Assembly (NCBI RefSeq): GCF_029433255.1
Contig: NZ_JAQTHU010000001.1
Span: 1 to 64,000, forward strand
DNA length: 64,000 nt
Direction of reading: 5' to 3'
From: Lactobacillus sp. ESL0791
GTDB lineage: Bacteria > Bacillota > Bacilli > Lactobacillales > Lactobacillaceae
This document shows, in pieces, positions 31,253-53,213 of the stretch; position 1 is the stretch's first letter, and every line of letters begins with the position of its first letter. Below the pieces are notes generated by a model. That model ran no database searches. It saw nothing but the letters and a program-made list of their open reading frames with translations, and had not been told where the DNA came from. The position numbers and the translations under genes were made by a program.

Positions 31253-31270
31253 TTATTTCCCGGGAAATAA
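31253..31270. other. Candidate Noc-binding site 1
   Basis: TTATTTCCCGGGAAATAA is a perfect 18-base palindrome and contains the exact Bacillus Noc-binding sequence ATTTCCCGGGAAAT. It lies just after the MFS stop, in intergenic DNA. Confidence 0.65.
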
Positions 31271-31271
31271 A

Positions 31272-32549
31272 TTATTCTGCAGGTTGAACTTGTTTATCTT
31301 GTGCAGTTTTGACAGTAGCTTGTTTGGTTTTTATCATGACGTACAGAGTAATAGCAAAAACAATGATACTGAGGATAATCAGGCCGTATAAAGCATAGTT
31401 AAGTCCAGCGGTACCAGCAATACTTGAAAAGATTGCATTTGTTAACGGGCCAGCAATGGCAAGAATAGTACTTAGTGCTCCCATGGTAGAAGCTAAAATT
31501 TTCCGATCAACTGATTGTACTCCCCACTGAAATAGTTTGGGTCCAGCAGTACCAGCAAAGAAGCCGAGAATTGCGCCGAAGATTAAACAAGCAATAGTGT
31601 TTTTACCCAGCATTGCTCCCAGCATAAGTACACTGGCAAGCGTGTCAAGCAAGACAATGACAAATAAGGAAGTGCTTTTTAGTAGTTTGGTGCCGACTGC
31701 ACTTCCAAGAGCTGTGCCGATGGAAACGACAGCGCCAAAGATAGCGATGGTAAAACTATAAGTGCCGATTAACATATTCTTATTGGCCGCAAAAGATATG
31801 GAAATTAGTGGCTCTAGTGCATATAAAATACCGTTCAGTAATGCAACCACTAGCGTAACTGTTAGCAAGCCATGAGCTTGTCTGGCCTGTTTAAATGAAG
31901 ATTTAAAGGTGGCAAAAAAGCCTTGGTCATTAACGGTTTGTAATTCTTTATTAATCGCCGCTTTTTTAATATTTTTAGCAATATTGGCAAAGATTAAACC
32001 TGCTATAAGGAAGGTTAACGCATTAACAATGGCTAAAGATGAATATGACATGAATAATAATAAGGCTGAACCAACGAATTGGGCACCCATTGTAATTAAT
32101 TGTGAAATCCCATTGGTAAAACCTTCGGCTTCACCAACATCATTTTCACCTACTAAACCGACAATTAACGGTGACTGTAAGCCGCCAGAATACATGCCAG
32201 CAACATCCGAAATAAAATTAATACAGATTACCAGCAATACAAGGTTCCACCCTGCGATGTTGGTTACAAAAAGCACGCCAACGAGCATGTACATTACAAA
32301 CCTGATGATTGCTAATAAAACGATGGTTTTGAATTTGTTTTTAGTACGGTCGGCAAAGTAACCACTCACGCTTTGTAACAGATCAGGAATTGCCTCGGTA
32401 ATTGAAATTAGTGAAAGTGCCAAGGCATAATTTTTCAGTTTGCTGGCATAGGTCATTAATGCTAGATAAAATAAAATGTTTCCTGCACTGGATAGCCAGC
32501 TAGCAATTGTAAACTTGCGATAATTTTTATTCTTTAAAAAGATGTTCAT
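31272..32549 (-). CDS. MFS transporter
   Basis: A 425-residue major facilitator with 12 predicted membrane segments, a start NKNYRKFTIASWLSSAGNILFYLAL typical of MFS drug or peptide exporters, and a conserved loop YFADRTKNKF (the D-R-x-x-R/K motif A) after helix 2. No substrate can be assigned. AAAGGAG precedes the ATG. It is divergent from an Rgg-type regulator at 32665, which probably controls it. Such Rgg-MFS pairs often export or respond to peptides, but that is an inference. Confidence 0.88.
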   Translation of the reverse strand: MNIFLKNKNYRKFTIASWLSSAGNILFYLALMTYASKLKNYALALSLISITEAIPDLLQSVSGYFADRTKNKFKTIVLLAIIRFVMYMLVGVLFVTNIAGWNLVLLVICINFISDVAGMYSGGLQSPLIVGLVGENDVGEAEGFTNGISQLITMGAQFVGSALLLFMSYSSLAIVNALTFLIAGLIFANIAKNIKKAAINKELQTVNDQGFFATFKSSFKQARQAHGLLTVTLVVALLNGILYALEPLISISFAANKNMLIGTYSFTIAIFGAVVSIGTALGSAVGTKLLKSTSLFVIVLLDTLASVLMLGAMLGKNTIACLIFGAILGFFAGTAGPKLFQWGVQSVDRKILASTMGALSTILAIAGPLTNAIFSSIAGTAGLNYALYGLIILSIIVFAITLYVMIKTKQATVKTAQDKQVQPAE

Positions 32550-32616
32550 GATTTTTCTCCTTTATTTGCTGATGTTTTTAGTATATTTTGGTTATAATAA
32601 AATTTAGAGAAAATGG

Positions 32617-32650
32617 CATATTTGACAATTAACTGCCATATTTGACAATT
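32617..32650. promoter_or_regulatory. Direct repeat between MFS and Rgg genes
   Basis: CATATTTGACAATT occurs at 32617-32630 and again at 32637-32650, exactly 20 bases apart (about two helix turns). Read on the minus strand, each unit gives AATTGTCAAATATG, so TTGTCA could act as -35 for the MFS gene. It is a good candidate operator for the Rgg protein. Confidence 0.6.
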
Positions 32651-32664
32651 TGAGGAGAATAATA

Positions 32665-33507
32665 ATGACGATTGGTGAATTGCTAAAGAATTATCGTATC
32701 GGGCAAAAGAAAACGCAGAAAGAATGGGCTGGTGATGTGATAAGTTCATCATTTTATGCCAAGGTTGAAAAAAATTTGAGTAGAATTTCTGCGGATGATC
32801 TAGTCAATCTGTTATATGCTAATAAAATTCCATTAATAGCATTTTTTGGCAAATTAAATCAGCAGGAGCAATCAATTCATAATCAAGAACAAGAAATAAT
32901 TAGGTTGGCTAATGAAGCCTACTACCAAAATTCTCTAAAAGATTTGCAACAAATTCGTAATGTAATTAAGAAAAGTGATTTTCCAGATAAAGACGATAAA
33001 TTGTTATTTGTTGATATATATATAGCGCTGGTAAGTGGGAATAAATTAGATACTGAAACAGTTAAAAAAGTAAAGGATAGAATTTTTAGTGTCCCTGACT
33101 TTAATGTTGATACTCTAACCCTATATTGTGATTTTATGGAGTTTTACGATTTAGACAGTAATTTAGTAATTTCTAAGCGAGTAATTAAGCAGTTTCTCGG
33201 TTCTAGTAGTAAAGAAGTTCAAGAATTACTTTTAACGATAATTACCAATATGATGATTTTATGTATTCAGAACAACAAGTTCGAAGAAGCAGACTTTTTT
33301 ATTAATAGTGAACAGCAGATCAGGACCAATCCAGACTTGTTTTTTCGCAAAATGATTGCTCCAGCTTTCGCAGATATAATTAAGTATCATTATGACCATA
33401 ATCAAAAACATCTTGATGAAGTAGAAACAATAGTTAAAGGTGTGCAAATAGCAGGAATGCCAAGTTATGCTAAAGATATAGAAGAATTGATGAACGCAAA
33501 TAAATAA
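32665..33507 (+). CDS. Rgg/GadR/MutR-family transcriptional regulator
   Basis: A 280-residue regulator with an N-terminal XRE helix-turn-helix (TIGELLKNYRIGQKKTQKEWAG...SSFYAKVEKNLSRISADDL) and a long alpha-helical, TPR-like C-terminal domain of the Rgg type. Many Rgg proteins sense secreted short peptides. I searched near the gene by eye and did not see a convincing small SHP-type peptide frame. The start is ATG at 32665 with AGGAG; a TTG-started longer frame begins 5 codons upstream. Divergent from the MFS gene. Confidence 0.85.
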   Translation: MTIGELLKNYRIGQKKTQKEWAGDVISSSFYAKVEKNLSRISADDLVNLLYANKIPLIAFFGKLNQQEQSIHNQEQEIIRLANEAYYQNSLKDLQQIRNVIKKSDFPDKDDKLLFVDIYIALVSGNKLDTETVKKVKDRIFSVPDFNVDTLTLYCDFMEFYDLDSNLVISKRVIKQFLGSSSKEVQELLLTIITNMMILCIQNNKFEEADFFINSEQQIRTNPDLFFRKMIAPAFADIIKYHYDHNQKHLDEVETIVKGVQIAGMPSYAKDIEELMNANK

Positions 33508-33637
33508 GCAAGTAAGGCAGCTTTATTATTTCTTAATTTTAGAAACTTATTTTTATGTTCTGCATAGCTTACCTGCTATACTTTAAAAAGCAATTTTACG
33601 TTTTGCTACATCAAAATTAATAAAAAAGGAGAACTTA

Positions 33638-34429
33638 ATGCAGCTTACTAAAAAACTACGTGGTTTTTCAACTTTTGACTTAAAAATTATTGGAATTGTG
33701 CTAATGGTAGTTGACCATGTTCACCAAATGTTTCAGCCAATGGGTGCACCATCTTGGCTGGATTGGTTTGGCCGACCTGTTGCCACGATTTTCTTTTTCA
33801 CAAGTGTAGTGGGCTTTAGCCACACGCATGATAAAAAGAAATATATGGAACGTTTATACATTTCCATGGTGCTGATGTCACTTTTGACTTGGATTCTGGA
33901 AAAAACGGTCCATTTTGAGCAAGTGGTTTTAATCAATAATATCTTCCGCGATTTGTTTGTCGGAACAATGTTTATGGCAGGAGTTGATCAGTTTGCTGCT
34001 GCCAAAAATGGTGATAAGGCCAAGCATATTTCTTGGGGAATTTTATGGTTTGCATTACCGTTTATTTTTTCAGCTATTTCCATGATTTTTGTTACTGTGC
34101 TGCCACTGCCACAAATTATTAAACAAATTACGGTTGGCATCCTGCCCGCGATTTTATTAGCCGAAAATAGTTTGATGGTATTACTGATACCGCTATTGTA
34201 CGTGTTTAGAGATAATAAAAAAATTCAATGTTTACTGATTGCGCTAGTGGCAATGCTTTATGGCCTAAAGGGCTCAACTCAGTGGATGATGATTTTTGCG
34301 ATTATTCCCATTTGGTTTTATAACGGTGAAAAGGGTCCAGGCATGAAATATTTCTTTTATATTTTTTACCCGGCGCATATTGCCCTTTTATATTGCTTAG
34401 CTGACTTTCTGTATAAGACGATGCATTAG
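33638..34429 (+). CDS. TraX-family membrane protein
   Basis: A 263-residue polytopic membrane protein (about seven or eight segments) with the TraX start STFDLKIIGIVLMVVDHVHQMF and the GRPVATIFFF motif. TraX in the F plasmid N-acetylates pilin, and chromosomal members are thought to be membrane acyltransferases. The role here is unknown. AAAAGGAG precedes the ATG. It ends before a shared bidirectional terminator. Confidence 0.85.
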   Translation: MQLTKKLRGFSTFDLKIIGIVLMVVDHVHQMFQPMGAPSWLDWFGRPVATIFFFTSVVGFSHTHDKKKYMERLYISMVLMSLLTWILEKTVHFEQVVLINNIFRDLFVGTMFMAGVDQFAAAKNGDKAKHISWGILWFALPFIFSAISMIFVTVLPLPQIIKQITVGILPAILLAENSLMVLLIPLLYVFRDNKKIQCLLIALVAMLYGLKGSTQWMMIFAIIPIWFYNGEKGPGMKYFFYIFYPAHIALLYCLADFLYKTMH

Positions 34430-34446
34430 AATTAATAAAATAGACT

Positions 34447-34475
34447 AAAATAGCGGACTTTATGTCCGCTATTTT
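34447..34475. terminator. Bidirectional terminator between traX-like and merR genes
   Basis: AAAATAGCGGAC, loop TTTAT, GTCCGCTATTTTT. The merR stop (34469-34471) lies inside the right arm. Confidence 0.85.
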
Positions 34476-34891
34476 TGATGCTTGATCCGTTTTAGATAAT
34501 TGCTGAAACTCTCGGAATCAGCAATTTTTCCATTTTCTTTGCCTTCATACCAAGCAATTTTATCGTTTAAGATTTGTAAATGATATTGCTGGTCAGAAAT
34601 TTGCTTTAAAAACTTTTGCTGTGTCTTTTTGAGCAGTTGCAAGCGTTGCGGAATGGTTGTATCGCCTTGGGCACGCCAAGCAACATATTTTTTCAGATCA
34701 GCAATACTCATTCCCGTATTTTTTAGATGCAGTAAAAATCTCATCCAGTTGGCATCATCTTCATCATAATAGCGCTGCCGGTTAGCCAAACGATGAGGTT
34801 TGATTAAGCCCTCCTCTTCATAATAGCGCAGAGTTGATGGCGCTAAATTAAATTTCTCGCTGAATTGCTGAATACTGTATTTTTCTTTCAT
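34469..34891 (-). CDS. MerR-family regulator (intact paralogue)
   Basis: A 140-residue MerR-type regulator with the winged-helix signature YSIQQFSEKFNLAPSTLRYYEEEGLIKP, then a coiled coil (RLQLLKKTQQKFLKQISDQ) and a short C-terminus. There are no cysteine sites as in metal sensors. It resembles the MerR proteins that control cupin/oxidoreductase stress operons. It is divergent from the cupin gene at 34971, with a 19-bp-spacer promoter carrying a palindrome between them. A broken copy lies at 25380. Confidence 0.92.
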   Translation of the reverse strand: MKEKYSIQQFSEKFNLAPSTLRYYEEEGLIKPHRLANRQRYYDEDDANWMRFLLHLKNTGMSIADLKKYVAWRAQGDTTIPQRLQLLKKTQQKFLKQISDQQYHLQILNDKIAWYEGKENGKIADSESFSNYLKRIKHQK

Positions 34892-34909
34892 GATTTTATC
34901 CTTTTTGTC

Positions 34910-34940
34910 TTGACTTAAAGTTAACTTTAAGGAATAGACT
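34910..34940 (+). promoter_or_regulatory. MerR-activated promoter of the cupin-SDR operon
   Basis: TTGACT (34910-34915) and TAGACT (34935-34940) are 19 bases apart, and the palindrome CTTAAAGTTAACTTTAAG overlaps the -35 and spacer. It is identical in layout to the orphan site at 25846. Confidence 0.85.
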
Positions 34941-34970
34941 ACCATTAAATTGAGAAAGAAGGAATCTAAA

Positions 34971-35699
34971 ATGGTAAAAAAACAAACAGCAGGTAGAAAA
35001 AACTTGGGCAATTTTGCTCCACAATTTGCTGCATTAAACGATGATGTCTTATTTGGGCAGGTCTGGGCAAAAGAAAATGAATTGTCAGCACATGACCGGT
35101 CTCTAATCACCATTGCTGCCTTGATGGCAATGGGTAATACCGAACAGATTGACGCGCACTTAAACATTGGTAAAACTAATGGTATCACCAAAGAAGAAAT
35201 AGTTGCAGAAATTACTCACCTAGCATTTTATGTTGGCTGGCCTAAAGCGTGGTCAACCTTTAACCGTGCTAAAGAAATTTGGCAAGATAAAGATGAAGAA
35301 GTGGAGCAGCCGGGAATTTTTGCTACTGGAGCTAAAAACACAGCGTATGATCAATATTTTGTCGGTCAAAGCTACAATAATTCGTTGGTTAAACCAGAGA
35401 AAAACGGCAGCAGTGTTCCGGTTAATAATGTGACCTTTGAACCGGGATGCTATAACCATTGGCACATTCATCATGGTGGCAGCCAAGTTTTGCTGGCAAT
35501 TGGCGGTCGGGGCTGGTATCAGGAGTGGGGAAAAGACCCGCAAGAGTTGACCCCAGGCTCAGTGGTTGTAGTTCACGATGGGATTAAACACTGGCATGGT
35601 GCCGCTAAAGACAGCTGGTTCAGTCACCTGGCTATTACAACAGGCAAAACAGAGTGGCTGGAGCCGGTGAATCCAGAGGAATATGAGCAGCTGCCATAA
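34971..35699 (+). CDS. Carboxymuconolactone-decarboxylase-type protein fused to a cupin
   Basis: A 242-residue two-domain protein. The N-terminal part (about 1-100) is a CMD/AhpD-like helical domain (FGQVWAKENELSAHDRSLITIAALMAMG; EIVAEITHLAFYVGWPKAW). The C-terminal part (about 130-235) is a cupin with HWHIHHGGSQVLLAIGGRGWYQ and VHDGIKHWHGA, giving His residues for a metal site. Members are linked to stress and redox responses; the substrate is not known. The start is ATG at 34971 with AAGGA. Likely an operon with the SDR gene 24 bases later. Confidence 0.87.
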   Translation: MVKKQTAGRKNLGNFAPQFAALNDDVLFGQVWAKENELSAHDRSLITIAALMAMGNTEQIDAHLNIGKTNGITKEEIVAEITHLAFYVGWPKAWSTFNRAKEIWQDKDEEVEQPGIFATGAKNTAYDQYFVGQSYNNSLVKPEKNGSSVPVNNVTFEPGCYNHWHIHHGGSQVLLAIGGRGWYQEWGKDPQELTPGSVVVVHDGIKHWHGAAKDSWFSHLAITTGKTEWLEPVNPEEYEQLP

Positions 35700-35723
35700 G
35701 CGAGCTGGAAGGAGAGATACAAG

Positions 35724-36470
35724 ATGGCAATAAAAGATAAGGTAATTATTATTACGGGTGCATCATCTGGTATTGGTGCGGCAACTGCAAAATTATTAGC
35801 ACAAAAAGGAGCTAAAGTGGTTTTGGCGGCCAGGCGCGAAGATAAGTTGCAGGTGCTGACAAAAGAAATCACCAGCAAGGGTGGACAAGCAAGCTATCAG
35901 GTAACAGATGTTACAAGTAAGACAGCTAATGAAGTGTTGGTTCAATCTGCATTGAAAAAATATGGACGTGTTGATACCATTTTTCTAAACGCAGGTTTAA
36001 TGCCCAGCTCACGGTTGTCGACCTTGAAAACTGATGAATGGGATAAGATGGTTGATGTTAATTTCAAGGGTGTCTTAAACGGAATTGCTGCAATTTTGCC
36101 CATTTTTTTAAAACAAAATTCTGGACAAATTGTTGTTACATCATCTGTGGCCGGATTAAAGCCATACTTAAATTCCGGCGTTTACGGAGCGACAAAGCAT
36201 GCAATTCGCGACTTAATGGAAGTGCTGCGCATGGAAGCGGCAACTGATGGCAATAACATTCGAACAACGACAATTTATCCTGCTGCCATTCAAACGGAAT
36301 TGTTGGACACGGTTTCTGATAAACAGGCAGCTAAAGCCCTGCATAAAACCTATAATAATTACCAGATTAGTCCTGAAAGAATTGCTAATGCTGTGGCTTT
36401 TGCGATTGACCAGCCAGAAGATACCGACATTAGTGAACTTACAATTGGGCCAACGAAACAGCCTTGGTAG
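35724..36470 (+). CDS. Short-chain dehydrogenase/reductase
   Basis: A 248-residue SDR oxidoreductase of the Rossmann fold. It has the TGASSGIG cofactor motif at about residues 12-19, the NAG motif (FLNAGLMP) and the catalytic S-Y-K (VVTSSVAG; YGATKHA). An Arg at the end of the second strand (AARRE) suggests NADP(H). AAGGAGAG precedes the ATG. Co-transcribed with the cupin gene under MerR control. Confidence 0.92.
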   Translation: MAIKDKVIIITGASSGIGAATAKLLAQKGAKVVLAARREDKLQVLTKEITSKGGQASYQVTDVTSKTANEVLVQSALKKYGRVDTIFLNAGLMPSSRLSTLKTDEWDKMVDVNFKGVLNGIAAILPIFLKQNSGQIVVTSSVAGLKPYLNSGVYGATKHAIRDLMEVLRMEAATDGNNIRTTTIYPAAIQTELLDTVSDKQAAKALHKTYNNYQISPERIANAVAFAIDQPEDTDISELTIGPTKQPW

Positions 36471-36492
36471 AAAAGTGAATTAATTTTGCTTA

Positions 36493-36508
36493 TGTTTCAT
36501 GTGGAACA
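36493..36508. other. Candidate parS (ParB-binding) site 2
   Basis: TGTTTCATGTGGAACA differs from TGTTNCACGTGAAACA at two positions and lies between the SDR stop and its terminator. Confidence 0.55.
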
Positions 36509-36530
36509 TGACTTTTTAAATTGAAAGTAC

Positions 36531-36570
36531 GGCCTTAATTTATCACCGCAGATAAGTTAAGGCATTTTTT
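36531..36570 (+). terminator. Terminator after the SDR gene
   Basis: GCCTTAATTTATC and GATAAGTTAAGGC form a stem with a short loop, followed by seven T residues. Confidence 0.75.
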
Positions 36571-36689
36571 TGTTTAGACTGATTCAAGCTGAACTTGATG
36601 TTATTTTTAGCAATTCAAGTAAAACTTGATATTCTTTCTTTGCAAAATATCGTATATTAATAGTGATAATAGTTATTGAGGAAATAAGT

Positions 36690-37544
36690 ATGAAACTGCA
36701 TGAATTTGGTGAGAAGTTAATCGCCGCAAGAAAAGCCCTAAATATGACACAAACAGAGGTTGCTGATAAATTGTTTGTCAGTTGCCAAGCCGTCAGCAAC
36801 TGGGAACGCGGATTATCGCTGCCGGATCTTGAAAAGCTACCGCAATTGTGTAAGATTTTAAAATTAAATGTTAATGACTTGTTAATCGACAGTGACAATG
36901 AGGATGTTAAGCGGCAAAACATTGCTCTTGAAGCAAAGCTGGATTTTGATGAGATTATCAATCTGGCACCGTTTTTAGAAACGGAAGATGTTGTTCGCTT
37001 AGCTGCTAATTCGCGTACTAAGCATGAGTTAAGTTCGGAGCAGCTGTATCAGTTGGGCCCGTTTATGAGTGGGGATGCATTTGACCATTTGGTCAATGAA
37101 TACTTAGATGATGGTGGACATGTAGCGGCTTATTCAAGGCTGGCGCCATTTGTTCATCGTTCAACTTTGCGGAGGGTGATTAGGCTGGCTAACAATGATT
37201 ACGAAAATTATCGGCTTGATGTTGGAATGGGTACAGAGCATCAATATAAATCTTTTGCTGGCAAAAAGCTATTCTCTGATACGCAGCTAAGTGCCGATCA
37301 TACCTTAATTAGATATCGCAAGGTTTTTCTCACAGATAAGGGCGAGTGGTTATATTATGAGAAGCAGATTGAAAATTATAACTTGTGGGATGAAAGCCCT
37401 GATAATGCCCATGTTCCAGGTAGTGATTCTAACTTGGTTAGAAAGAATTTTAAAAGCTTATCTTCGATTGAAGAATTAATTCCATACATAGGTAAAAACA
37501 ACACAGAAAACTTGAAAGCTGAAAAGAGTAAAGATGAAGTATAA
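36690..37544 (+). CDS. XRE-family transcriptional regulator with C-terminal extension
   Basis: A 284-residue protein with an N-terminal Cro/cI helix-turn-helix (FGEKLIAARKALNMTQTEVADKLFVSCQAVSNWERG) and a long C-terminal region of unknown fold, as in lactobacillus helix-turn-helix proteins that precede membrane-protein genes. GAGGAAATAA precedes the ATG at 36690; the longer frame from 36663 is not needed. The CPBP-type protease-like gene lies 36 bases downstream, so the pair is probably an operon. Confidence 0.8.
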   Translation: MKLHEFGEKLIAARKALNMTQTEVADKLFVSCQAVSNWERGLSLPDLEKLPQLCKILKLNVNDLLIDSDNEDVKRQNIALEAKLDFDEIINLAPFLETEDVVRLAANSRTKHELSSEQLYQLGPFMSGDAFDHLVNEYLDDGGHVAAYSRLAPFVHRSTLRRVIRLANNDYENYRLDVGMGTEHQYKSFAGKKLFSDTQLSADHTLIRYRKVFLTDKGEWLYYEKQIENYNLWDESPDNAHVPGSDSNLVRKNFKSLSSIEELIPYIGKNNTENLKAEKSKDEV

Positions 37545-37580
37545 TAGTGATTAAATAAAAATCGGCTTAAAGGACGAATT

Positions 37581-38402
37581 ATGAAAAATATTAAAACCAA
37601 ATCGGGAAGCGCAAATAATATTTGGGTAGTAGTTGTTACGATCATAATTTATTTGGCTGCCCTAATGACCAGTAAACTGCTTTCTTTTTTTAGCAATAGC
37701 AATGTTTTTATTACGGAAACGGTGTTGTATCTTGTTTTGCTTGTTGTCATGTTAGTATTCAATAAAAAGGTTGTAAAATTGACTTTGTTTGTTGCAAATT
37801 GGCATTTTCCGTTTAGTGTTTGGTTGATTTGGCTGTTAGATATTTTGAAGACCTTGCTTATGCCGGGAATATTATTAGGAATTGCCTTGGGTTTAGGGGG
37901 AAGGTTTGGCTCCGGAATTGATAAGGGGAAAATAGTATTAGTGTTAGTAATGCTTCTCAGCATTGTGTTATTTGAGGAAATAACTGTGCACGGCATTCTA
38001 TTACCTAGTTTGGTTAAAGTTTTGCAACAGCATAAGCATTGCCTTCTCGTAGCGCTTCTTATTAATGTGCTGGTTTTTGGCTTTGCCCATTTGTTTGACC
38101 CTATTCTTGTTCCCATGCTTATACCAAGTAAATCAATTGTGGTAGCAATATTTCATGCAATTGAAACTGCAGCCAGCGGCTTGATCTTGGGTGCAATTTA
38201 TTTGCGGTCCAAAAATCTTGTTTTGCCGGTGCTGCTGCAATTCATCTTGTATCCGATAGAGTATTTTTTGCTCGGAACAACTCACAGTGCGGAGCTAAAA
38301 ATTTTGCCGCTAATTTTATACGTTCTCTTATGTATTTGTGCTGCGGTATATTTAATTAGGAGAATTAAGCCGCAGGAATGGCTGAATTCTGCTGGTGCTT
38401 GA
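37581..38402 (+). CDS. CPBP-family (Abi/CAAX-type) intramembrane protein
   Basis: A 273-residue protein with about seven or eight membrane segments. The CPBP metalloprotease motif 1 is FEEITVHG near residue 133, where the family norm is EExxxR: the Arg is His here. Motif 2 is FGFAHLFDP, keeping F-x-x-x-H. Some CPBP proteins protect against bacteriocins or process peptides; others are thought to be inactive. The His variant makes catalysis uncertain. Confidence 0.78.
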   Translation: MKNIKTKSGSANNIWVVVVTIIIYLAALMTSKLLSFFSNSNVFITETVLYLVLLVVMLVFNKKVVKLTLFVANWHFPFSVWLIWLLDILKTLLMPGILLGIALGLGGRFGSGIDKGKIVLVLVMLLSIVLFEEITVHGILLPSLVKVLQQHKHCLLVALLINVLVFGFAHLFDPILVPMLIPSKSIVVAIFHAIETAASGLILGAIYLRSKNLVLPVLLQFILYPIEYFLLGTTHSAELKILPLILYVLLCICAAVYLIRRIKPQEWLNSAGA

Positions 38403-38459
38403 TGCGTTATAATTATTTGCGTGAAGCCGAAACTAAAAATTTATTTTGAGGAAAGTTAA

Positions 38460-39236
38460 ATGGAACAGAAATATCAAGAAACTACGATTGGTAAGATTGA
38501 ATATACTATGCGGAAAGGGACTCCCTTGGTGGTCTTTCTTAATAGTTTTGGCAGTTTTGATACTGCTCAGAGTTTTAGCACGGTAATTAGGAAATTACCA
38601 GCTGATTATGGTGTTTTTGCACCAGATTATCTGAATACTGGTTTTAGCGGTAAGTCGCTTAAGCCGTATACTTTGACGGATGAAGCAATCGAAATTGCTA
38701 AAATAATAAACAGTTTTAATGCTGAGAGAGTCATTATTGTGGCACATAGCCTTGGCGGTGTTTATGCATTCCAAATGCGGAATAAAGTTAAAAATTTATC
38801 GGCTTTGGTAGAAATTGAGCCCACGACAAGGGAAATTATTTTGAATCCGCCACAAGAAAAGTCATATCTTGAAAAGAAAAATGCTGCTGTCAGTGAAGAG
38901 TTTATTCATAATAAAATAAATACATTATTTCCTGAGACAGAAGCCACGGAATTTTGGCAAACGACCGATGAAAACAGTGCTAAGTTTGATGAAGCTGCTA
39001 GCCAAAATGCAATGGCAGCCATGGAAAATGATGAATTTTGGCAGGGAAATGACAAATCTAATGCTGATCTTCCTGTGATTATTTTTACGGAAACCTATCG
39101 GAAGGACGAATATAGGCGCTCGGAATATTTTAATGACAATCCTCAATCTAAAATTATTCCGCTGGGTTCCTTTCATTATCTGCATTGGGAATACCCTAAG
39201 GAAGTTGCTAATGCGATTATTGATTTGTCTAAATAA
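38460..39236 (+). CDS. Alpha/beta hydrolase
   Basis: A 258-residue serine hydrolase with the nucleophile elbow VAHSLGGVYA (Ser about residue 97), an acid region (VEIEPT or FTET) and a late catalytic-His candidate in GSFHYLHWEYP. It has no signal peptide, so it is cytosolic. GAGGAAAG precedes the ATG. Its substrate is unknown. Confidence 0.85.
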   Translation: MEQKYQETTIGKIEYTMRKGTPLVVFLNSFGSFDTAQSFSTVIRKLPADYGVFAPDYLNTGFSGKSLKPYTLTDEAIEIAKIINSFNAERVIIVAHSLGGVYAFQMRNKVKNLSALVEIEPTTREIILNPPQEKSYLEKKNAAVSEEFIHNKINTLFPETEATEFWQTTDENSAKFDEAASQNAMAAMENDEFWQGNDKSNADLPVIIFTETYRKDEYRRSEYFNDNPQSKIIPLGSFHYLHWEYPKEVANAIIDLSK

Positions 39237-39339
39237 TTAGTTGTTTATTTTGATGTGAGAACGCAAAAAGCGCTTATAAATATGCTAATATTGGTTGTGA
39301 ATAATATATATTTAATTAATTTGAGACGGAGGAGCTATT

Positions 39340-40203: not shown

Positions 40204-40219
40204 ATTAATTGTCAATTTC

Positions 40220-41383: not shown

Positions 41384-41426
41384 TGTGTATTGATATGTAT
41401 TATTTAGAATGAAGATGGAGGATCAG

Positions 41427-42278: not shown

Positions 42279-42281
42279 ACT

Positions 42282-45721: not shown

Positions 45722-45744
45722 TTTTTGATTTTTAATAAGAATAG

Positions 45745-45778
45745 AAGGGGCAACTATGAAAAGCTGCTCCTTTTTTTC
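45745..45778. terminator. Bidirectional terminator after the antiporter gene
   Basis: AAGGGGCA and TGCTCCTT pair with one G-U, with A and T runs on either side. Confidence 0.7.
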
Positions 45779-45787
45779 TGAATTAAT

Positions 45788-45985
45788 CTAGCCACCAATG
45801 AATGCAATTAACAGACAAATAATGATTGCCAAAACAAGAAGCGGTAATAGTAGGTGAATAAAAAAGACGAAGCCAATAACAACTAGGAATAGATAAACAA
45901 AAATCTTGATAAGTCCAAAGCCTAGTTTGATAAAAAGCCATAATAAGAAGAATACTAATAAGAACGTGAGAAAAAGCGTCAACAT
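45788..45985 (-). CDS. Small hydrophobic membrane protein
   Basis: A 65-residue protein that is almost wholly hydrophobic, with two or three helices (LTLFLTFLLVFFLLWLF; FVYLFLVVIGFVFFIHLLL). GGAGGTG lies 8 bases before the ATG at 45985, which makes it a convincing gene. No family is recognised. It could be a membrane-stress or transporter accessory peptide. It ends at the shared terminator. Confidence 0.7.
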   Translation of the reverse strand: MLTLFLTFLLVFFLLWLFIKLGFGLIKIFVYLFLVVIGFVFFIHLLLPLLVLAIIICLLIAFIGG

Positions 45986-46138
45986 AAATAGTTCACCTCC
46001 ATGATAGTAAATATTATAACTTAATTAAGGACAAGGCAGGTAAAAGTAGGGCGATTTTTGAAAAACTAAATAAAATTGGTTAATTTTGCCAAGCATAACT
46101 GCTATAATTTATTTCCATGTCAATGTACGAAAGAAAAA

Positions 46139-46154
46139 TATTTCCTAGGAAATA
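46139..46154. other. Noc-site-like palindrome (variant)
   Basis: TATTTCCTAGGAAATA is a perfect palindrome and differs from the Noc site ATTTCCCGGGAAAT by its two central bases (CG to TA). It lies 17 bases before the yjjG-like start, so it could instead be an operator. Confidence 0.4.
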
Positions 46155-46170
46155 ATGGAGGGGTCATTTA

Positions 46171-46875
46171 ATGCGTTATCGCCAAATAATTTTTGATGTT
46201 GATGATACTTTGATTGATTTTTATGCTACGGAAAGCTTTGCTTTGCGCGGCTTATTTGCAGCACACCAATGGAAGCTGACTACTGCTTTACAGCGCAAAT
46301 ATCATTCTTATAACCAGGGATTATGGCGAAGACTCGAACAGGGTGAAATTAATTATGAACAGTTGAGTGAGATGACATTTCATAATTTTATTAAAGATAA
46401 TTTGGGGCTAGAGGTTGATGGCTTAAAAATGATGGATGAGTATCGCTCATATTTTGGTCAGGCACATAAATTGCTCCCGGGTGTAAAAGACACCCTGCAG
46501 TTTGCCAAGAAAAATAATTACCAATTAGCCGTTTTGAGCAATGGTGAAAAGCATATGCAAAGGCAACGTCTTGAATTGGCTGGAATTAAGGATTATTTTT
46601 CGCTAATTATTACTTCCGAGGAAGCTGGGCATTCAAAACCAGATTCACAGATTTTTGATTATTTTTTTAGTCAAACCGATATTGGTCCGTTTCAAACGAT
46701 CTTTTTTGGCGATGGTTTAAAGTCAGATATTTTGGGGGCAACACGCTATGGCTTCGATAGTATTTGGTATAATCACCGTCACCGTGTAAATGATTTGCAC
46801 TTACATCCGTTATTTGAGGTTGATAATTACTCGCAGCTTGTTGCAATTATGAAAAATAATTTTAATAAATTTTAA
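46171..46875 (+). CDS. HAD-superfamily nucleotidase, YjjG family
   Basis: A 234-residue HAD phosphatase with motif I FDVDDTLIDF, motif II LSNG, motif III HSKPD and motif IV FFGDGLKSDILGA, in the YjjG arrangement with a helical cap. YjjG dephosphorylates non-canonical pyrimidine nucleotides. GGAGGGG precedes the ATG. Monocistronic. Confidence 0.9.
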   Translation: MRYRQIIFDVDDTLIDFYATESFALRGLFAAHQWKLTTALQRKYHSYNQGLWRRLEQGEINYEQLSEMTFHNFIKDNLGLEVDGLKMMDEYRSYFGQAHKLLPGVKDTLQFAKKNNYQLAVLSNGEKHMQRQRLELAGIKDYFSLIITSEEAGHSKPDSQIFDYFFSQTDIGPFQTIFFGDGLKSDILGATRYGFDSIWYNHRHRVNDLHLHPLFEVDNYSQLVAIMKNNFNKF

Positions 46876-46952
46876 TTTATAAACGCATAGCAGTAGAATG
46901 AAGTAGGGCCAATTATTTATAATAAAAGATAATTATATAAGGAGGAAATATA

Positions 46953-47810
46953 ATGACACTGAATTCTTTAAATGATACTTACCGGCTTAACAATGGAGTT
47001 GATATCCCGGTTATTGGTTTTGGAACATGGCAGACACCTGATGGTGAAGTTGCGCGCGATTCGGTTTTAACGGCGATTAAAGCAGGTTACCGTTTGATTG
47101 ACACTGCTGCTGCTTACGGTAATGAACAAAGTGTAGGGGAGGGGATTAAGAAAAGCGGTATTAACCGGCATGATTTATTTGTAACGACTAAGTTATGGAA
47201 TACAGATCACGGATATCAAAACACCAAAAAGGCAATTGATACAAGCCTTAGTAACCTTGGTCTTGATTATCTTGACTTGTACTTAATCCATTGGCCTAGT
47301 CCGACTGCGACACGTGCTCATTGGGCAGAACTAAACGCTGAGAGCTGGCAGGCAATGGAAGAAGCTGTTAAAGCTGGTAAAATTCGGGCAATTGGTGTTT
47401 CCAATTTTAGAAAAAAACATCTTGATGAATTATTAAAAACGGCTGAAATTAAACCGGCAGTCAATCAAAACTACTTGAATCCAAGTGATATGCAAACCGC
47501 TTTAACTTCCTACAATGATAAGCTGAGCATTCTTAATGAGGCGTACAGTCCATTGGGAACTGGCGGTTTGCTGCAGGATCATACTGTAGAAAAAATAGCA
47601 CAAGCATACGGTAAAAGCTCGGCGCAGCTTTTAATTCGCTGGTCTTTGCAACATGGTTTTCTGCCATTACCTAAGTCAGTTCATCCGGATTATATCAAGG
47701 CTAATGCTGAAGTTTTTGACTTTGAAATTTCGCCTGCAGATATGAAACTGCTTGATGGCTTGCATGGTGTAGGCAAACTAGCCAAGGATCCTGATGAGGC
47801 TAATTTCTAA
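46953..47810 (+). CDS. Aldo/keto reductase (2,5-diketo-gluconate reductase type)
   Basis: A 285-residue AKR with signature GFGTWQTPDGEVARDSV, catalytic Asp and Tyr in LIDTAAAYGNE, Lys in VTTKLW and His in LIHWP. It is closer to the YvgN/DkgA type than the other AKR at 41427. AAGGAGG precedes the ATG. Its end comes 29 bases before the proC start. Confidence 0.92.
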   Translation: MTLNSLNDTYRLNNGVDIPVIGFGTWQTPDGEVARDSVLTAIKAGYRLIDTAAAYGNEQSVGEGIKKSGINRHDLFVTTKLWNTDHGYQNTKKAIDTSLSNLGLDYLDLYLIHWPSPTATRAHWAELNAESWQAMEEAVKAGKIRAIGVSNFRKKHLDELLKTAEIKPAVNQNYLNPSDMQTALTSYNDKLSILNEAYSPLGTGGLLQDHTVEKIAQAYGKSSAQLLIRWSLQHGFLPLPKSVHPDYIKANAEVFDFEISPADMKLLDGLHGVGKLAKDPDEANF

Positions 47811-47838
47811 TTTTTATACTATAATGAGGAGAGCAAAA

Positions 47839-48603
47839 ATGAAAATTGGTTTTATTGGGACGGGCAAAATTGGGACGTCCATAATTAAAGGTCTTTTACA
47901 GGCTCAAATTGCCAGTAAAGATATTTATGTATTGAATAGTGGCCATGAATCTGCAAAAATGACTGCACAAAAATATAATTTAACGTTTGTAAACAATTAT
48001 GCTGATTTTAATGGTTGTGCCGTTGTAATTGTTGCTGTTGGTGGTCCCGCTACAACTAAAATCTTGCTAGCGTTAGGACAAAAGTATCAGGGAATCATGC
48101 TGTCAACTGGCGGCGGTGACCTTACGGAAATTAATCAAAAGACATCTGCGAGTGTGCATTTTGCACAAATTGTTCCGAATACACCGGTGCAAGTGGGTGA
48201 AGGAATTACCGCGATTAGTTTTATTCCAAATGAAAAACCGGAAGTAATTAAACAAGTTAAGACGATTTTTTCTAAAATGGGTGATGTTTACGTTGTTCCT
48301 GAGGAAATGCTCGGAATCTATGGAACGATAGCTGGCTGTACACCAGCTTATGTTGATTTAATGATTGAAGCACTCAGCGATGCAGCGGTTCAGAATGGTG
48401 TTAAGCGTGCGGAATCGTACCAGATAATTGAACAGATGCTATTAGGAACAGCTGAATTGGCATTAACTAATAAAAAGTTGCCTGAAGAATTAAAAGATGA
48501 GGTGACTACTCCTGGTGGATCAACAATCAGGGGTGTTACTAAGCTTGAAGAAGCGGGTTTTAGAAATGCTTTGATTCAAGCTGTTAATGCATCAGCTAAT
48601 TAA
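47839..48603 (+). CDS. proC: Pyrroline-5-carboxylate reductase
   Basis: A 254-residue enzyme for the last step of proline synthesis. The Rossmann motif GFIGTGKIGTSIIKGLL opens the protein and the family signature TPGGSTIRG lies near the end. The ATG at 47839 follows GAGGAG; the longer frame from 47794 overlaps the AKR gene and is not needed. The gene sits without other proline genes and ends at a very strong hairpin. Confidence 0.9.
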   Translation: MKIGFIGTGKIGTSIIKGLLQAQIASKDIYVLNSGHESAKMTAQKYNLTFVNNYADFNGCAVVIVAVGGPATTKILLALGQKYQGIMLSTGGGDLTEINQKTSASVHFAQIVPNTPVQVGEGITAISFIPNEKPEVIKQVKTIFSKMGDVYVVPEEMLGIYGTIAGCTPAYVDLMIEALSDAAVQNGVKRAESYQIIEQMLLGTAELALTNKKLPEELKDEVTTPGGSTIRGVTKLEEAGFRNALIQAVNASAN

Positions 48604-48608
48604 GAGAC

Positions 48609-48644
48609 AAAAAAAGAATGTTTCATATGAAACATTCTTTTTTT
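48609..48644. terminator. Terminator after proC containing parS-like core (candidate site 3)
   Basis: AAAAAAAGAATGTTTCAT and ATGAAACATTCTTTTTTT form a perfect stem, and the centre reads TGTTTCATATGAAACA (48619-48634), two bases off the parS consensus. It ends both proC and, in reverse, the PTS gene. The parS likeness may be chance. Confidence 0.8.
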
Positions 48645-48658
48645 GCTTTGAACCACTA

Positions 48659-50596
48659 TTAAATCGTTCCTGGGCGCTTTGCTTTTTCTACTTTATTGCC
48701 CATCGTCATTTTATCATCATAACCCCAGAACCAGGTAATAACAAAGGCAACAACAATTGCAACTGCACTAGCAAGTAGGAATGCATAGAAGCTACTAAGA
48801 TCACTAGGATTCTTAGGATTGAAGAAACTTGAAAAGCCGATCAAACCACCTGTGAAGCCAAACATGGTTCCGTGCATTAATCCAGTAATTAGGCCGCCAA
48901 AAGCAGCACCGATTGAACCAGATATGAAGACCTTCTTATATCTTAGATTAACACCATAAATAGCGGGCTCGGTTACCCCACAGAAGGCACTGATCATTGC
49001 GGCAAAACCTAATTCTTTAATATCTGCCTTTTTTGATTTGATTGCAACAGCCAAAACGGCCGCACCTTGAGAAATCATTGTTGAACAGATAATTGCGTTA
49101 ATTGCACTTTGCCCCGTACTTGCAATTTGCTGGGCAACCAACGGAACCACACCCCAGTGAAAGCCAAAGATAACCAAAACTTGGTAAAGGCCGCCGATGA
49201 TGAAACCGCCAAGCCAACCTGAGACAGAAACCAGCCAGTTAATGAAGACAGCAATTCCGTTGGCAATTCCTTGAATAATTGGTCCTGTGATGACTAATGT
49301 GATCGTTGAAACTACCAAGACGGTGATTAACGGAACAAAAATCATTTGTAGATAGGTTGGTAAAACTTTCTTTAACCATTTTTCCAACTTAAAGGCCAAC
49401 CAAGCTGCCAAAATCATTGGAAAGATTGAATAGGTATAGTTCAAAAACTGAAAATTTAGTCCAGCCAAGTTGAACATTACCTTGCCAGCTTTACCCCAGG
49501 CAATTAGCTGGGGCATAGTAATGACACCGCCGATGACAGCGGCAATAATTGGGTCACTGCCGAGACGTTTAGCGGCACTGAAGCCAACCCAGATAGGCAG
49601 GAAGTAAAATGCTGAATCTGCCATCGCACTAACTGTAATATATGGAACACTGTTAACATTAAGCAAGGAACCAAGCTGCGGCAGAGTGAGCAAAGCAAGG
49701 ATGCCCTTGATAATTCCCGATGCCGCAATGACACCGATGACTGGACTCATTGAACCGGTTATAAAACCGATCAGGTTATTTAGTGCTCTTGTAAAAGGAT
49801 TTTTACCAGTATTTTGATTGCCTTCTTGGCTTGCGGCCGTCTCATCTAATTCAGGAAGTTGCTTAATCAGTTCGTCATATAAATTAGCTACCCCATCGCC
49901 AATAACAACTTGATATTGACCGGAAGCATGCATTACGTCAAGGATACCACGCTGATTTTTCAATACGTCATCATCAGCTTTAGCTTCGTCTTTTAAGTAA
50001 AAACGCAGCCGCGTTATACAGTGAATCACATTTTTAATATTTTCTTTGCCGCCCACATTTTTGATGATAAAAGCAGCTAAATCAGGATTAGATAATTTTT
50101 TAGCTGAAGTCTTTTCCGAATTAGCAGCCTTAAGATAAGCAGTGGCGACAGAGTTTCCCGCCTTAGTCTCACCTTCAGTCACATCTACTCCGGCAATTTT
50201 GTCATTTGAATTGGTAATAACGGTAATAATCGTTGGATCCAGCTTGGATTGCTTAACCATATCAAGATCCATCACTGCAATTCGTTGACCTGCTGTGACG
50301 GTATCACCATTTTTTATGTTAATTGCAAATGGCTTACCTTTAAGTTCAACGGTATCAATTCCCATATGAACTAATACCTCAAGCCCTTCGTTAGTTTTAA
50401 GTCCAATTGCATGCTTTGTTGCAGCAATAGTCACGATTTTACCGGTAACTGGTGCTACAATTTCACCACTTGAAGGTATTAAACCGAACCCCTGGCCCAT
50501 TGTTCCTTTGCTGAAAACGGGATCATTAATGCTGCTTAGGGCAACAACTTGACCGTTAGCAGGAGCCAAAAGAGAAGCCTTATTATTGTTTGCCAT
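48659..50596 (-). CDS. treB: PTS trehalose-type transporter, fused IIA-IIB-IIC
   Basis: A 645-residue PTS permease with an unusual-order fusion: glucose-type IIA first (about 1-165; catalytic His in LEVLVHMGIDTV), then IIB (about 175-255; Cys in NVIHCITRLRF), then the ten-segment IIC (about 270-640). Its neighbours TreR and phosphotrehalase point to trehalose, giving trehalose-6-phosphate. AAGGAGGAC precedes the ATG on the minus strand. It is divergent from treR with a tre operator between them. Confidence 0.9.
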   Translation of the reverse strand: MANNNKASLLAPANGQVVALSSINDPVFSKGTMGQGFGLIPSSGEIVAPVTGKIVTIAATKHAIGLKTNEGLEVLVHMGIDTVELKGKPFAINIKNGDTVTAGQRIAVMDLDMVKQSKLDPTIITVITNSNDKIAGVDVTEGETKAGNSVATAYLKAANSEKTSAKKLSNPDLAAFIIKNVGGKENIKNVIHCITRLRFYLKDEAKADDDVLKNQRGILDVMHASGQYQVVIGDGVANLYDELIKQLPELDETAASQEGNQNTGKNPFTRALNNLIGFITGSMSPVIGVIAASGIIKGILALLTLPQLGSLLNVNSVPYITVSAMADSAFYFLPIWVGFSAAKRLGSDPIIAAVIGGVITMPQLIAWGKAGKVMFNLAGLNFQFLNYTYSIFPMILAAWLAFKLEKWLKKVLPTYLQMIFVPLITVLVVSTITLVITGPIIQGIANGIAVFINWLVSVSGWLGGFIIGGLYQVLVIFGFHWGVVPLVAQQIASTGQSAINAIICSTMISQGAAVLAVAIKSKKADIKELGFAAMISAFCGVTEPAIYGVNLRYKKVFISGSIGAAFGGLITGLMHGTMFGFTGGLIGFSSFFNPKNPSDLSSFYAFLLASAVAIVVAFVITWFWGYDDKMTMGNKVEKAKRPGTI

Positions 50597-50658
50597 ATTG
50601 TCCTCCTTTTCTACAATGCATTTGCATTTTTACTAAGTAATACAATAATATTATCATA

Positions 50659-50672
50659 CTTGTCTATACAAG
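50659..50672. promoter_or_regulatory. TreR operator
   Basis: CTTGTCTATACAAG matches the TreR site type TTGTATATACAA apart from one base and lies between the divergent treB and treR genes. A second partial copy CTTGTATGTACC lies near 50726, overlapping the treR promoter. Confidence 0.65.
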
Positions 50673-50721
50673 CTGTCAATAATTTGTTTACTGATATTTT
50701 TAGCAATTTAAATAAAAGTAG

Positions 50722-50751
50722 TTTACTTGTATGTACCGAAGTAGGTATAAT
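50722..50751 (+). promoter_or_regulatory. Promoter of treR-treC
   Basis: TTTACT (50722) and TATAAT (50746), 18 bases apart, sit 27 bases before the treR ATG, with an operator-like sequence in the spacer. Confidence 0.55.
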
Positions 50752-50777
50752 AAAGAAAATTGATGAAAGGAATTTCA

Positions 50778-51500
50778 ATGGAATCTAAATCTGATCTGAT
50801 TGCACAAGATATTACTGCTAAAATTAGACATCAACAGTTTAAGATTAATTCATTTTTGCCAAGCGAAAGTGAGCTGACTATTTTGTATGGGACTTCACGT
50901 GAAACGGTTAGAAAAGCATTAGACCAGCTCAATTCTTTAGGCGTAATTCAAAAAATTCGCGGCAAAGGTTCAATGGTGTTAAATCTGGAAAAATATTCTT
51001 TTCCCGTTTCAGGAATTTCAAGCTTTGCTGAGCTAAGTCAAGCAATGGGAATGAGAACCGAAACTATTGTTTTAACTTTGAAAAAAATGAAGTCCTTACC
51101 AGCACTTTTTCAAGAGAAATTTCCTGAAGAAAAAGAGCAAAAGGGAATTTATATTGAACGTTTACGAATAATTAATGGGAAAGCAGAAATTCTTGATTGT
51201 GATTTCTTATTTACACCACCGATTACTGAATTACCGCTTGAAGCCGCGCAGACTTCAATTTATAGTTATCTCGAAAATAAAAAGGGCTTAGAAGTTTCAT
51301 ATGCTACAAAAGCAATTACGGTTGAGAAGATTGGCAAGCAATTGCAAAATAAACTCGGCATAGAAGGTAATTCAGCAGTTTTGGTAGCTAGCCATAATTT
51401 TTTGAGCGATGCAACTTTGTTTCAGCTTACTTTGTCCTATCATGATCCGCAAAAATTTAAATTTGTGGATTTTGCTCGTAGACAGAGAATCAAACCCTAA
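50778..51500 (+). CDS. treR: Trehalose operon repressor TreR (GntR/UTRA family)
   Basis: A 240-residue regulator with an N-terminal GntR winged helix (LPSESELTILYGTSRETVRKALDQL) and a C-terminal UTRA ligand domain (about 75-235) that binds trehalose-6-phosphate. The ATG at 50778 has AAAGGA upstream; a frame from TTG 50760 is open but lacks a site. It likely represses both treB and its own operon with treC, which begins 11 bases after it. Confidence 0.88.
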   Translation: MESKSDLIAQDITAKIRHQQFKINSFLPSESELTILYGTSRETVRKALDQLNSLGVIQKIRGKGSMVLNLEKYSFPVSGISSFAELSQAMGMRTETIVLTLKKMKSLPALFQEKFPEEKEQKGIYIERLRIINGKAEILDCDFLFTPPITELPLEAAQTSIYSYLENKKGLEVSYATKAITVEKIGKQLQNKLGIEGNSAVLVASHNFLSDATLFQLTLSYHDPQKFKFVDFARRQRIKP

Positions 51501-51511
51501 GGGAGCAGCTA

Positions 51512-53179
51512 ATGGTTAATTTAGGCAAAAAAGTAATTTATCAAATTTATCCTAAATCTTTTTATGATTCTAACAATGACGGTATTGGAGATATTCAGGG
51601 AATTATTCAAAAAATTGATTATATAAAAAAACTCAATGTTGATATGATTTGGTTTAATCCTTTTTTTGTTTCACCACAGAATGATAATGGCTACGATATT
51701 GCTAATTATTATCAAATTGATCCGCTTTTTGGTACAATGGCAGATTTTGATGAGCTAGTTTCCAAATTGAAGGAAATTAATGTTGGTGTGATGCTTGATA
51801 TGGTTTTCAATCATTGTTCAACTAGCAATGAATGGTTTCAAAGGGCTTTAGCTGGCGATGAAAAATACCGTAAATTTTTTTATTTACGTAAAGCAAAGCC
51901 TGATGGCAGCTTGCCGACTAATTGGCAAAGTAAGTTTGGGGGCCCAGCTTGGGCAAAATTTGGTGATACTGATTATTATTACCTGCATCTTTACGATCCC
52001 AGTCAAGCAGATCTTAATTGGCATAATCCAGAAGTCAGACAAGAAGTTTATAAAGTAGTTAATTTTTGGCGAGCTAAAGGAGTTCGGGGCTTTAGGTTTG
52101 ACGTGATTAACGTTATTGGCAAAGCTGACAAGTTAGTTGATTCAACCGATCCAGTGCAAGAAAAGAGTTTGTATACTGATACGCCAATCGTTCATCAGTA
52201 TTTAAAAGAATTAAATGCGGCAAGTTTTGGAAAGGATTTTGATAGTATAACTGTTGGCGAGATGTCATCTACCACGATTAAAAATTCAATTAAATACTCC
52301 AAACCTAGTGAACATGAATTATCAATGGTTTTTAATTTTCATCATTTAAAAGTTGATTATAAAAATGGTGAAAAATGGTCTAAGATGCCGTTTGATTTTA
52401 TGAAATTAAAAAATTTGTTTGCTGATTGGCAAGAAAAAATGGATCAAGGTGGCGGCTGGAATGCACTCTTTTGGAATAATCATGATCAGCCTATGGCTCT
52501 CAACCGCTTTGGTGATCCTGGTAAGTACCGTATAAAATCTGCTGAAATGCTTGCTACTGCAATTCATTTAATGCGTGGTACACCATATATTTATATGGGT
52601 GAAGAAATTGGAATGATTGATCCTGATTATTCTTCAATTAATAATTATGTTGATGTAGAAAGCTTAAATGCTTTTAATAAACTGAAAAAACAAGGAATGT
52701 CGGATGAAGGGGCTTTGGCAATTGTTAAAGCCAAGTCGCGTGATAATTCGCGAACGCCAATGCATTGGGACTCTGACCAATATGCGGGTTTTAGCAAAGT
52801 AAAGCCGTGGCTGATGCCGAGAAAGCAGATGCAAATCAATGTCTGTAAAGAGCTAACCCAAGGAGAAATTTTTAATTACTATCAAAAATTGATTAGGATC
52901 CGAAAACATGAGGATTTGATTTCTGATGGGCATATCAAAATGTTTTTAAAAAATGATCCACAAATTTTGGCTTATGAGCGATTTAATCTTGATAGTACTA
53001 GTAAAATATTAGTTTTTACTAATTTTTATGGTCAAGAACATAAGATCCAAATACCAACTGCTTATGTGGATCAGCCGTATTCCATCTTGATTAGCAATTA
53101 CCAAAGAGTAGCAGGTAATTTGCAACCTTCATTAATTTTTAAGCCATATGAAGCTCTTGCTATAAAGCTAAAGCCATAA
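51512..53179 (+). CDS. treC: Alpha,alpha-phosphotrehalase (GH13)
   Basis: Hydrolyses trehalose-6-phosphate to glucose and glucose-6-phosphate in the cytosol. The 555-residue GH13 enzyme shows the four conserved regions: DMVFNHCS, GFRFDVINV (nucleophile Asp), the acid EMSS and NNHDQP. The typical opening is VIYQIYPKSFYDSNNDGIGDIQG. GGGAG precedes the ATG. It is co-transcribed with treR. Trehalose use links to osmotic and freezing tolerance. Confidence 0.9.
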   Translation: MVNLGKKVIYQIYPKSFYDSNNDGIGDIQGIIQKIDYIKKLNVDMIWFNPFFVSPQNDNGYDIANYYQIDPLFGTMADFDELVSKLKEINVGVMLDMVFNHCSTSNEWFQRALAGDEKYRKFFYLRKAKPDGSLPTNWQSKFGGPAWAKFGDTDYYYLHLYDPSQADLNWHNPEVRQEVYKVVNFWRAKGVRGFRFDVINVIGKADKLVDSTDPVQEKSLYTDTPIVHQYLKELNAASFGKDFDSITVGEMSSTTIKNSIKYSKPSEHELSMVFNFHHLKVDYKNGEKWSKMPFDFMKLKNLFADWQEKMDQGGGWNALFWNNHDQPMALNRFGDPGKYRIKSAEMLATAIHLMRGTPYIYMGEEIGMIDPDYSSINNYVDVESLNAFNKLKKQGMSDEGALAIVKAKSRDNSRTPMHWDSDQYAGFSKVKPWLMPRKQMQINVCKELTQGEIFNYYQKLIRIRKHEDLISDGHIKMFLKNDPQILAYERFNLDSTSKILVFTNFYGQEHKIQIPTAYVDQPYSILISNYQRVAGNLQPSLIFKPYEALAIKLKP

Positions 53180-53197
53180 TATAGGATTTTAATTGAA

Positions 53198-53213
53198 TAT
53201 TTCCCGGGAAATA
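53198..53213. other. Candidate Noc-binding site 2
   Basis: TATTTCCCGGGAAATA is a perfect palindrome containing the exact Noc sequence ATTTCCCGGGAAAT. It lies between treC and the terminator shared with ldhD. Confidence 0.65.

Follow-up and report, generated by a model that had tools for sequence, protein, structure and literature searches.

The stretch analysed here, referred to as the window, comprises the first 64 kb of contig C1 (2,384,397 bases) of Lactobacillus sp. ESL0791, whose genome totals 2,433,355 bases in four contigs. The window begins the chromosome contig with dnaA and contains four short palindromes that are predicted to be binding sites (Noc-binding sites, NBS) for the nucleoid occlusion protein Noc. 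The palindromes, together with dnaA and the gene in which one of them lies, are as follows.

5..1369, plus strand: dnaA, marking the origin region
3114..4250, plus strand: recF, carrying NBS 1 (identified by its sequence and by its position following dnaA-dnaN, with no family search)
4163..4178, no strand: predicted NBS 1, TATTTCCTGGGAAATA, inside recF, where it encodes GISWEI
31254..31269, no strand: predicted NBS 2, TATTTCCCGGGAAATA, flanked by convergent open reading frames (ORFs)
46139..46154, no strand: predicted NBS 3, TATTTCCTAGGAAATA, 16 bases upstream of a HAD-hydrolase ORF starting at 46171
53198..53213, no strand: predicted NBS 4, TATTTCCCGGGAAATA, flanked by convergent ORFs

The 14-mer ATTTCCCGGGAAAT occurs in exact copies at 31255-31268 and 53199-53212, with none expected from 100 dinucleotide shuffles, and a variant with a TA centre lies at 46140-46153. 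All three were present as the original prediction had described them (its span of 31253-31270 for the first was padded by two bases on each side), and its claim that the 14-mer exceeds chance was borne out. A fourth site within recF, ATTTCCTGGGAAAT at 4164-4177, which has one mismatch, had been missed; the palindromes had also been placed outside genes, which holds for those at 31254, 46139 and 53198 and fails for the one in recF (4163-4178). When the 14-mer was mapped against the origin (oriC) across the whole genome, exact copies were found only at the two window places near dnaA, and one-mismatch places numbered five more, the recF site included. The 16-bp form of the site, TATTTCCYRGGAAATA, has four exact fits in the window (4163, 31254, 46139 and 53198), compared with none in 100 shuffles, and the same four are the sole exact fits in the genome. 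The published 16-bp NBS consensus is TATTTCCC-GGGAAATA, with diagnostic bases at position 1 (A) and position 6 (C) (PMC7383237). Two of the sites match this consensus perfectly, two are altered only at the central CG pair, and all four carry both diagnostic bases.

Two ParB-family genes were located at ~2.096-2.098 Mb, within an operon read from the minus strand.

~2095543-2098787 of C1 (G000), minus strand: rsmG-noc-parA-parB operon (L031, L032), with noc 286 kb from dnaA

A noc gene near parB, as had been anticipated, is therefore present, and it carries the NBS-type specificity residues. The product of the upstream ParB-family gene scored 329 bits against TIGR04285 (nucleoid occlusion protein; curated cut-off 315), and that of its downstream paralogue, ParB, scored 244.5 bits, below the cut-off. 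The solved sequences nearest to the upstream protein were 7nfu (E 7e-55), 7ng0 and 7ol9, and its GERR and ENLQRE stretches, which we take to be the CTP (cytidine triphosphate)-binding motifs of the ParB/Noc fold, align to the Noc of 7nfu. Four residues are reported to decide between NBS and parS binding (PMC7383237). When these positions were mapped from the conserved G170-K171-S172 and N178, Noc was found to have Q173, K179, K184 and R201, and ParB to have R, Y, T and G at the same positions. A TIGR04285 match over the cut-off was obtained in 61 of 61 Lactobacillus genomes; among the 46 of these 61 whose Noc was read, Q173, K179 and R201 were invariant, and position 184 was occupied by K (43 genomes) or R (3). 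This Noc matched 20 loci in named genomes, of which 17 encode a Lactobacillus Noc (73-82% identity), among them those of L. kullabergensis and L. helsingborgensis, both inhabitants of the bee gut. The Noc N-terminus has a conserved hydrophobic start. Judged from its sequence, this gene encodes a Noc orthologue with NBS-type residues. The noc operon lies 286 kb away, whereas the NBS and the parS-like sites stay beside dnaA; by subtraction, the distance from noc to dnaA is ~136-298 kb in nine site-bearing relatives.

The association between Noc and the sites was examined in 300 Lactobacillaceae genomes, which were scored as Noc-positive where the best TIGR04285 match had E <1e-80; no best E-value fell between 3.3e-85 and 1.2e-78. 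By this measure 168 genomes were Noc-positive (153 reaching the curated cut-off) and 132 Noc-negative. Exact NBS were found in 106 of the 168 and in 1 of the 132 (Fisher p 3e-35, with relatedness ignored). Because the genomes are related, this p value overstates their independence, and the contrasts within genera depend on it less. In genera g4, g19 and g31, whose members differ in the presence of Noc, sites are confined to Noc-positive genomes: in g4 the one Noc-positive genome sampled (G325) is the sole site-bearer, in g31 sites occur in the two Noc-positive genomes only, and in g19 the two Noc-negative genomes lack them. Within the genus Lactobacillus, exact 16-mers were present in 46 of 61 genomes, compared with 1 of 61 for a reversed control pattern. 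The near-absence of sites from Noc-negative genomes supports, from sequence alone, Noc as the main reader of this motif in the Lactobacillaceae. The sole Noc-negative genome with an exact NBS is G213 (genus g25), at C1:456871, which may be a chance occurrence or a remnant.

These observations suggest, with a probability that we put at about 0.8, that the four palindromes are NBS of the Noc whose gene lies on the left side of dnaA, 286 kb away. The evidence comprises the sites themselves, their clustering at dnaA, the Noc orthologue, the co-occurrence of Noc with sites and a partial retention of sites among relatives.

All four exact 16-mers lie within 53.2 kb of the dnaA start and none (0/4) in the distal half of the chromosome; if four sites were placed uniformly at random, the probability of every one lying inside this distance on either side would be 4e-6, for a bound set after the fact. 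When up to two mismatches were allowed, 20 distinct places were found, 8 of them within 65 kb of dnaA compared with 1.1 expected, this bound too having been picked after the data were seen. The weaker sites on the left arm lie at -14, -40, -44 and -61 kb. Twelve of the 20 lie beyond 65 kb, the nearest of those at 306 kb and 397 kb, and six of the 20 fall in the distal half, as background would give. The terminus avoidance that had been expected by analogy was therefore observed for the exact sites and not for the near-sites, and a spread over the chromosome was not observed for strong sites, which here keep within ~53 kb of dnaA.

The layout was then compared across the genus, in which dnaA was placed in all 61 genomes. 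The comparison used ten genomes in which dnaA sits on a chromosome-scale contig and the sites are fully listed; the sites of G054-G060 were left out of the counts. These ten hold 52 exact sites, many of them common by descent and so not independent, of which 44 lie within 110 kb of dnaA and none (0/52) in the distal half; the eight beyond 110 kb all belong to one genome, G040, and when it is excluded all 40 sites of the other nine lie within 101 kb. Distances across contig ends assume that the contig is a closed chromosome; G019 and G040 have ~0.3 Mb in other contigs, and the left-arm distances of G040 are lower bounds. In the 30 fragmented site-bearing genomes, 55 of 96 sites were on the dnaA contig and no more than 90 kb away, a maximum bounded by the extent of the contigs; the other 41 are unplaced.

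Retention of single sites was assessed with 25 exact sites from stretches of relatives, 8 of which gave an alignment spanning the site with the DNA fetched from the ESL0791 genome. Five of the 8 coincide with a site there: the recF site (in G040), 53198 (G045), 46139 (G048) and 2370102 (G045 and G048), the last having one mismatch in ESL0791 and being exact in both relatives. One central base differs at 53198 in G045, and likewise at 46139 in G048, where the flanks have diverged; at 46139, 53198 and 2370102 alike, the 16-mer differs by 1-2 bases and the intergenic DNA around it aligns poorly. No site orthologous to NBS 2 (31254) was found in the stretches of relatives compared.

The site in recF recurs within the genus: an exact site 4.1-4.2 kb from the dnaA start was present in 9 of the 10 chromosome-scale and 22 of the 30 fragmented site-bearing genomes of the genus. 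The codons at 4161-4178 of the window encode GISWEI, which was found in 22 of 22 Lactobacillus recF genes (apart from one E-to-D and one W-to-R replacement). In G045 the change is CGG for TGG, by which the tryptophan kept in the other 21 is lost and the palindrome is made perfect. GISWEI was found in none of 16 recF genes from other Lactobacillaceae genera (those of 40 genomes whose fetched stretch included recF), in which the site has 7-10 mismatches in 8 Noc-positive and 6-11 in 8 Noc-negative genomes. NBS 1 is thus seen only in the genus Lactobacillus, since the codons of these 16 are unrelated to it with or without Noc. The GISWEI pattern looks as if the DNA site had shaped the protein segment.

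Several observations weigh against the identification of the palindromes as NBS or against their restriction to the origin. Exact sites are lacking in 62 of the 168 Noc-positive genomes of the family and in 15 of the 61 of the genus, all 15 of which have Noc. In two of these 15 genomes near-sites with up to two mismatches were placed relative to dnaA, and they crowd around it: 17 of 34 in G005 and 18 of 28 in G013 lie within 100 kb (the control pattern gave 1 and 6, respectively, genome-wide). The array of G040 is wide, with 12 sites from -390 to +270 kb, and G001, where four of the unplaced sites span 368 kb of one contig that lacks dnaA, is broad too. Three of the 8 alignable sites of relatives fall on ESL0791 DNA that has no site, from which it follows that site turnover is real. 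Conservation of the recF site does not clearly exceed that of other codons in the gene: over 22 genomes the codon of the window was kept in 95% and 100% at two of its positions and in 64% and 68% at two others, against a mean retention of 50% over 210 comparable codons. Finally, the amphipathic membrane helix of the Noc N-terminus was not confidently seen, either by hydrophobic moment (which did not exceed that of shuffles in 9 Noc N-termini, with no known Noc as a positive control) or in a structural model of the Noc of a relative (for which 14 of the 20 loci were used), where a helix predicted at residues 3-7 has a pLDDT (predicted local distance difference test score) <50.

The predicted system resembles that of Bacillus subtilis in its 16-bp consensus, its Q/K/K/R residues, a terminus free of strong sites, and the position of noc, which in B. 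subtilis adjoins parA/parB as it does here. To our knowledge, maps of Noc come chiefly from B. subtilis and Staphylococcus aureus, and a search of literature, mostly without subscription papers, gave among the titles listed none on a Noc site layout for any Lactobacillus. In B. subtilis about 70 Noc sites were found, by affinity precipitation rather than by motif (PMC4726725), and these are enriched across the origin-proximal two-thirds (PMC5540599). S. aureus has 41 loci detected by chromatin immunoprecipitation, of which 40 are no more than 700 kb from the origin (PMC5540599), a published layout that covers the origin-proximal half. Here, by contrast with the ~70 sites of B. subtilis, there are four exact sites within 53 kb by strict consensus only, and the strong-site layout is probably narrower than either published one; the contrast is only suggestive, because strict-consensus sites are being compared with maps from binding experiments. 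Weaker sites may extend further than strong ones.

It is accordingly possible, if less likely than an origin-bound layout, that the palindromes are ordinary NBS of a chromosome-wide array of the B. subtilis kind, of which a strict search sees only the strongest members while weaker sites occupy both arms. The position of 12 of the 20 near-sites of ESL0791 beyond 65 kb is consistent with this, as are the excess at up to three mismatches (85 places compared with 31 for the control pattern), the 34 near-sites of G005 (which compare with 1 for the control and reach ~500 kb, with two beyond), the exact sites of G040 out to 390 kb or more, and the experimental origin of the B. subtilis map. Against it stand the 40 exact sites of nine of the ten chromosome-scale site-bearing genomes, all of which are near dnaA, and the more distant near-sites of ESL0791, which begin only at 306 and 397 kb and reach the distal half in the manner of scattered background.

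If the palindromes are NBS, their mode of action may be sketched from work on B. subtilis and S. aureus, in which Noc loads at NBS, spreads with CTP, attaches to the membrane by a helix and blocks the division ring (PMC8429893, PMC4331003, PMC5540599, PMC4726725). By analogy, Noc dimers would load at the NBS and close as CTP-dependent clamps, which would spread over several kb; the origin region would be tied to the membrane through the N-terminal helix, and the division ring would thereby be kept from forming there. As the strong sites extend only ~53 kb to the right of dnaA and the weaker ones ~61 kb to the left, the protected zone probably comprises the origin region of this species and not its whole nucleoid. 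In B. subtilis, Spo0J and Noc jointly restrain the Z ring at midcell if replication is blocked early (PMC6852036), which suits an origin-based role.

A different output from the same binding would be regulation of DnaA and of the initiation of replication, on the model of S. aureus, instead of septum protection; this appears unlikely as the main function. It is favoured by the closeness of the sites to dnaA, with NBS 1 recurring 4.1-4.2 kb from the start of dnaA in 31 of the 40 site-bearing genomes compared in the genus, by the finding that S. aureus Noc restrains initiation (PMC5540599), and by a likeness in the Min system, which S. aureus is reported to lack (PMC5540599). In the ESL0791 genome no MinD over the curated cut-off was found, the best match being ParA; MinC, and MinD in relatives, were not searched. 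The same source reports that B. subtilis Noc binds nearly all of the same S. aureus sites and yet does not replace the native protein functionally (PMC5540599), so site binding alone does not explain initiation control. The likeness to S. aureus extends to the core site and the origin bias, besides the absence of Min there and of a detected MinD here, whereas S. aureus has no counterpart of the ParA present here. From B. subtilis, the system differs in the 286 kb that separate noc-parAB from dnaA and in the lack of a MinD over the cut-off.

If Noc protects the origin region, a tentative proposal, to which we give somewhat less than even odds, is that the Lactobacillus Noc system has contracted to, or never grew beyond, an origin marker: with few sites within ~100 kb of oriC and no MinD found, it would protect and time origin segregation and not clear the bulk nucleoid. 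Were this so, the width of the array would be something that evolution can adjust, small in most species and large in a few (G040, for example). The palindromes are most probably the sites of a known system in a genus new for it, with the narrow layout as the point of interest. A genus whose strong sites crowd at the origin lends itself naturally to testing whether nucleoid occlusion depends on broad coverage of the chromosome, and its species, some with narrow arrays and some with wide ones, can be compared to that end.

ParB and parS offer a related system, with a paralogous protein and 16-bp palindromes near oriC, and three parS-like sites were found in the window.

14452..14467, no strand: parS-like site, two mismatches from TGTTTCACGTGAAACA
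36493..36508, no strand: parS-like site, two mismatches from TGTTTCACGTGAAACA
48619..48634, no strand: doubtful parS-like palindrome TGTTTCATATGAAACA, with two mismatches, at the core of a terminator-like stem

The third may be a terminator and not parS, because TGTTTCATATGAAACA forms the core of an 18-pair terminator-like stem (48607-48646) between convergent ORFs. Seven parS-like places with up to two mismatches were found genome-wide, five of them within 50 kb of dnaA by subtraction, which agrees with the expectation of the original prediction that both site types would be found near the origin. Only these seven were used, since at up to three mismatches the pattern was no commoner than its reversed control (20 compared with 17). 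That the four palindromes are themselves divergent parS sites bound by ParB is very improbable. Their position near the origin and the relatedness of ParB and Noc sites would allow it, but the parS bases of TGTTTCAC-GTGAAACA at positions 1 and 6 occur in none of the four, which have the A and C of NBS at both diagnostic positions (PMC7383237). Moreover, separate parS-like sites lie near dnaA, exact NBS occur in only 1 of the 132 family genomes with a ParB-grade match and no Noc, and ParB, encoded here alongside Noc, has R/Y/T/G in place of Q/K/K/R, so that the two systems differ at residues 173 and 201 as well as at the two bases.

It is hardly credible that an ordinary transcription factor uses the palindromes as operators, as the place of NBS 3 just upstream of an ORF might suggest, or that they are a product of chance, given that two are flanked by convergent ORFs and a third is inside recF, that none was expected from 100 shuffles, that site presence tracks Noc across the family and that no terminator-like stem in the scan arises from NBS 2, 3 or 4. 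Terminators were likewise rejected as the cause of the palindromes, on a scan around NBS 2, 3 and 4 (NBS 1 was not scanned) in which no terminator-like stem was formed by an NBS. Visual inspection shows a hairpin followed by T directly 3' of NBS 4, which is absent from the list given by the scan.

The window also contains two near-identical copies of an insertion sequence, at ~16958-17891 and ~27811-28744, which lie 10.85 kb apart in the same orientation. In each copy the transposase is divided between two ORFs, with HTH_Tnp_4 and DDE_Tnp_4 domains identified by a scan of the first copy only.

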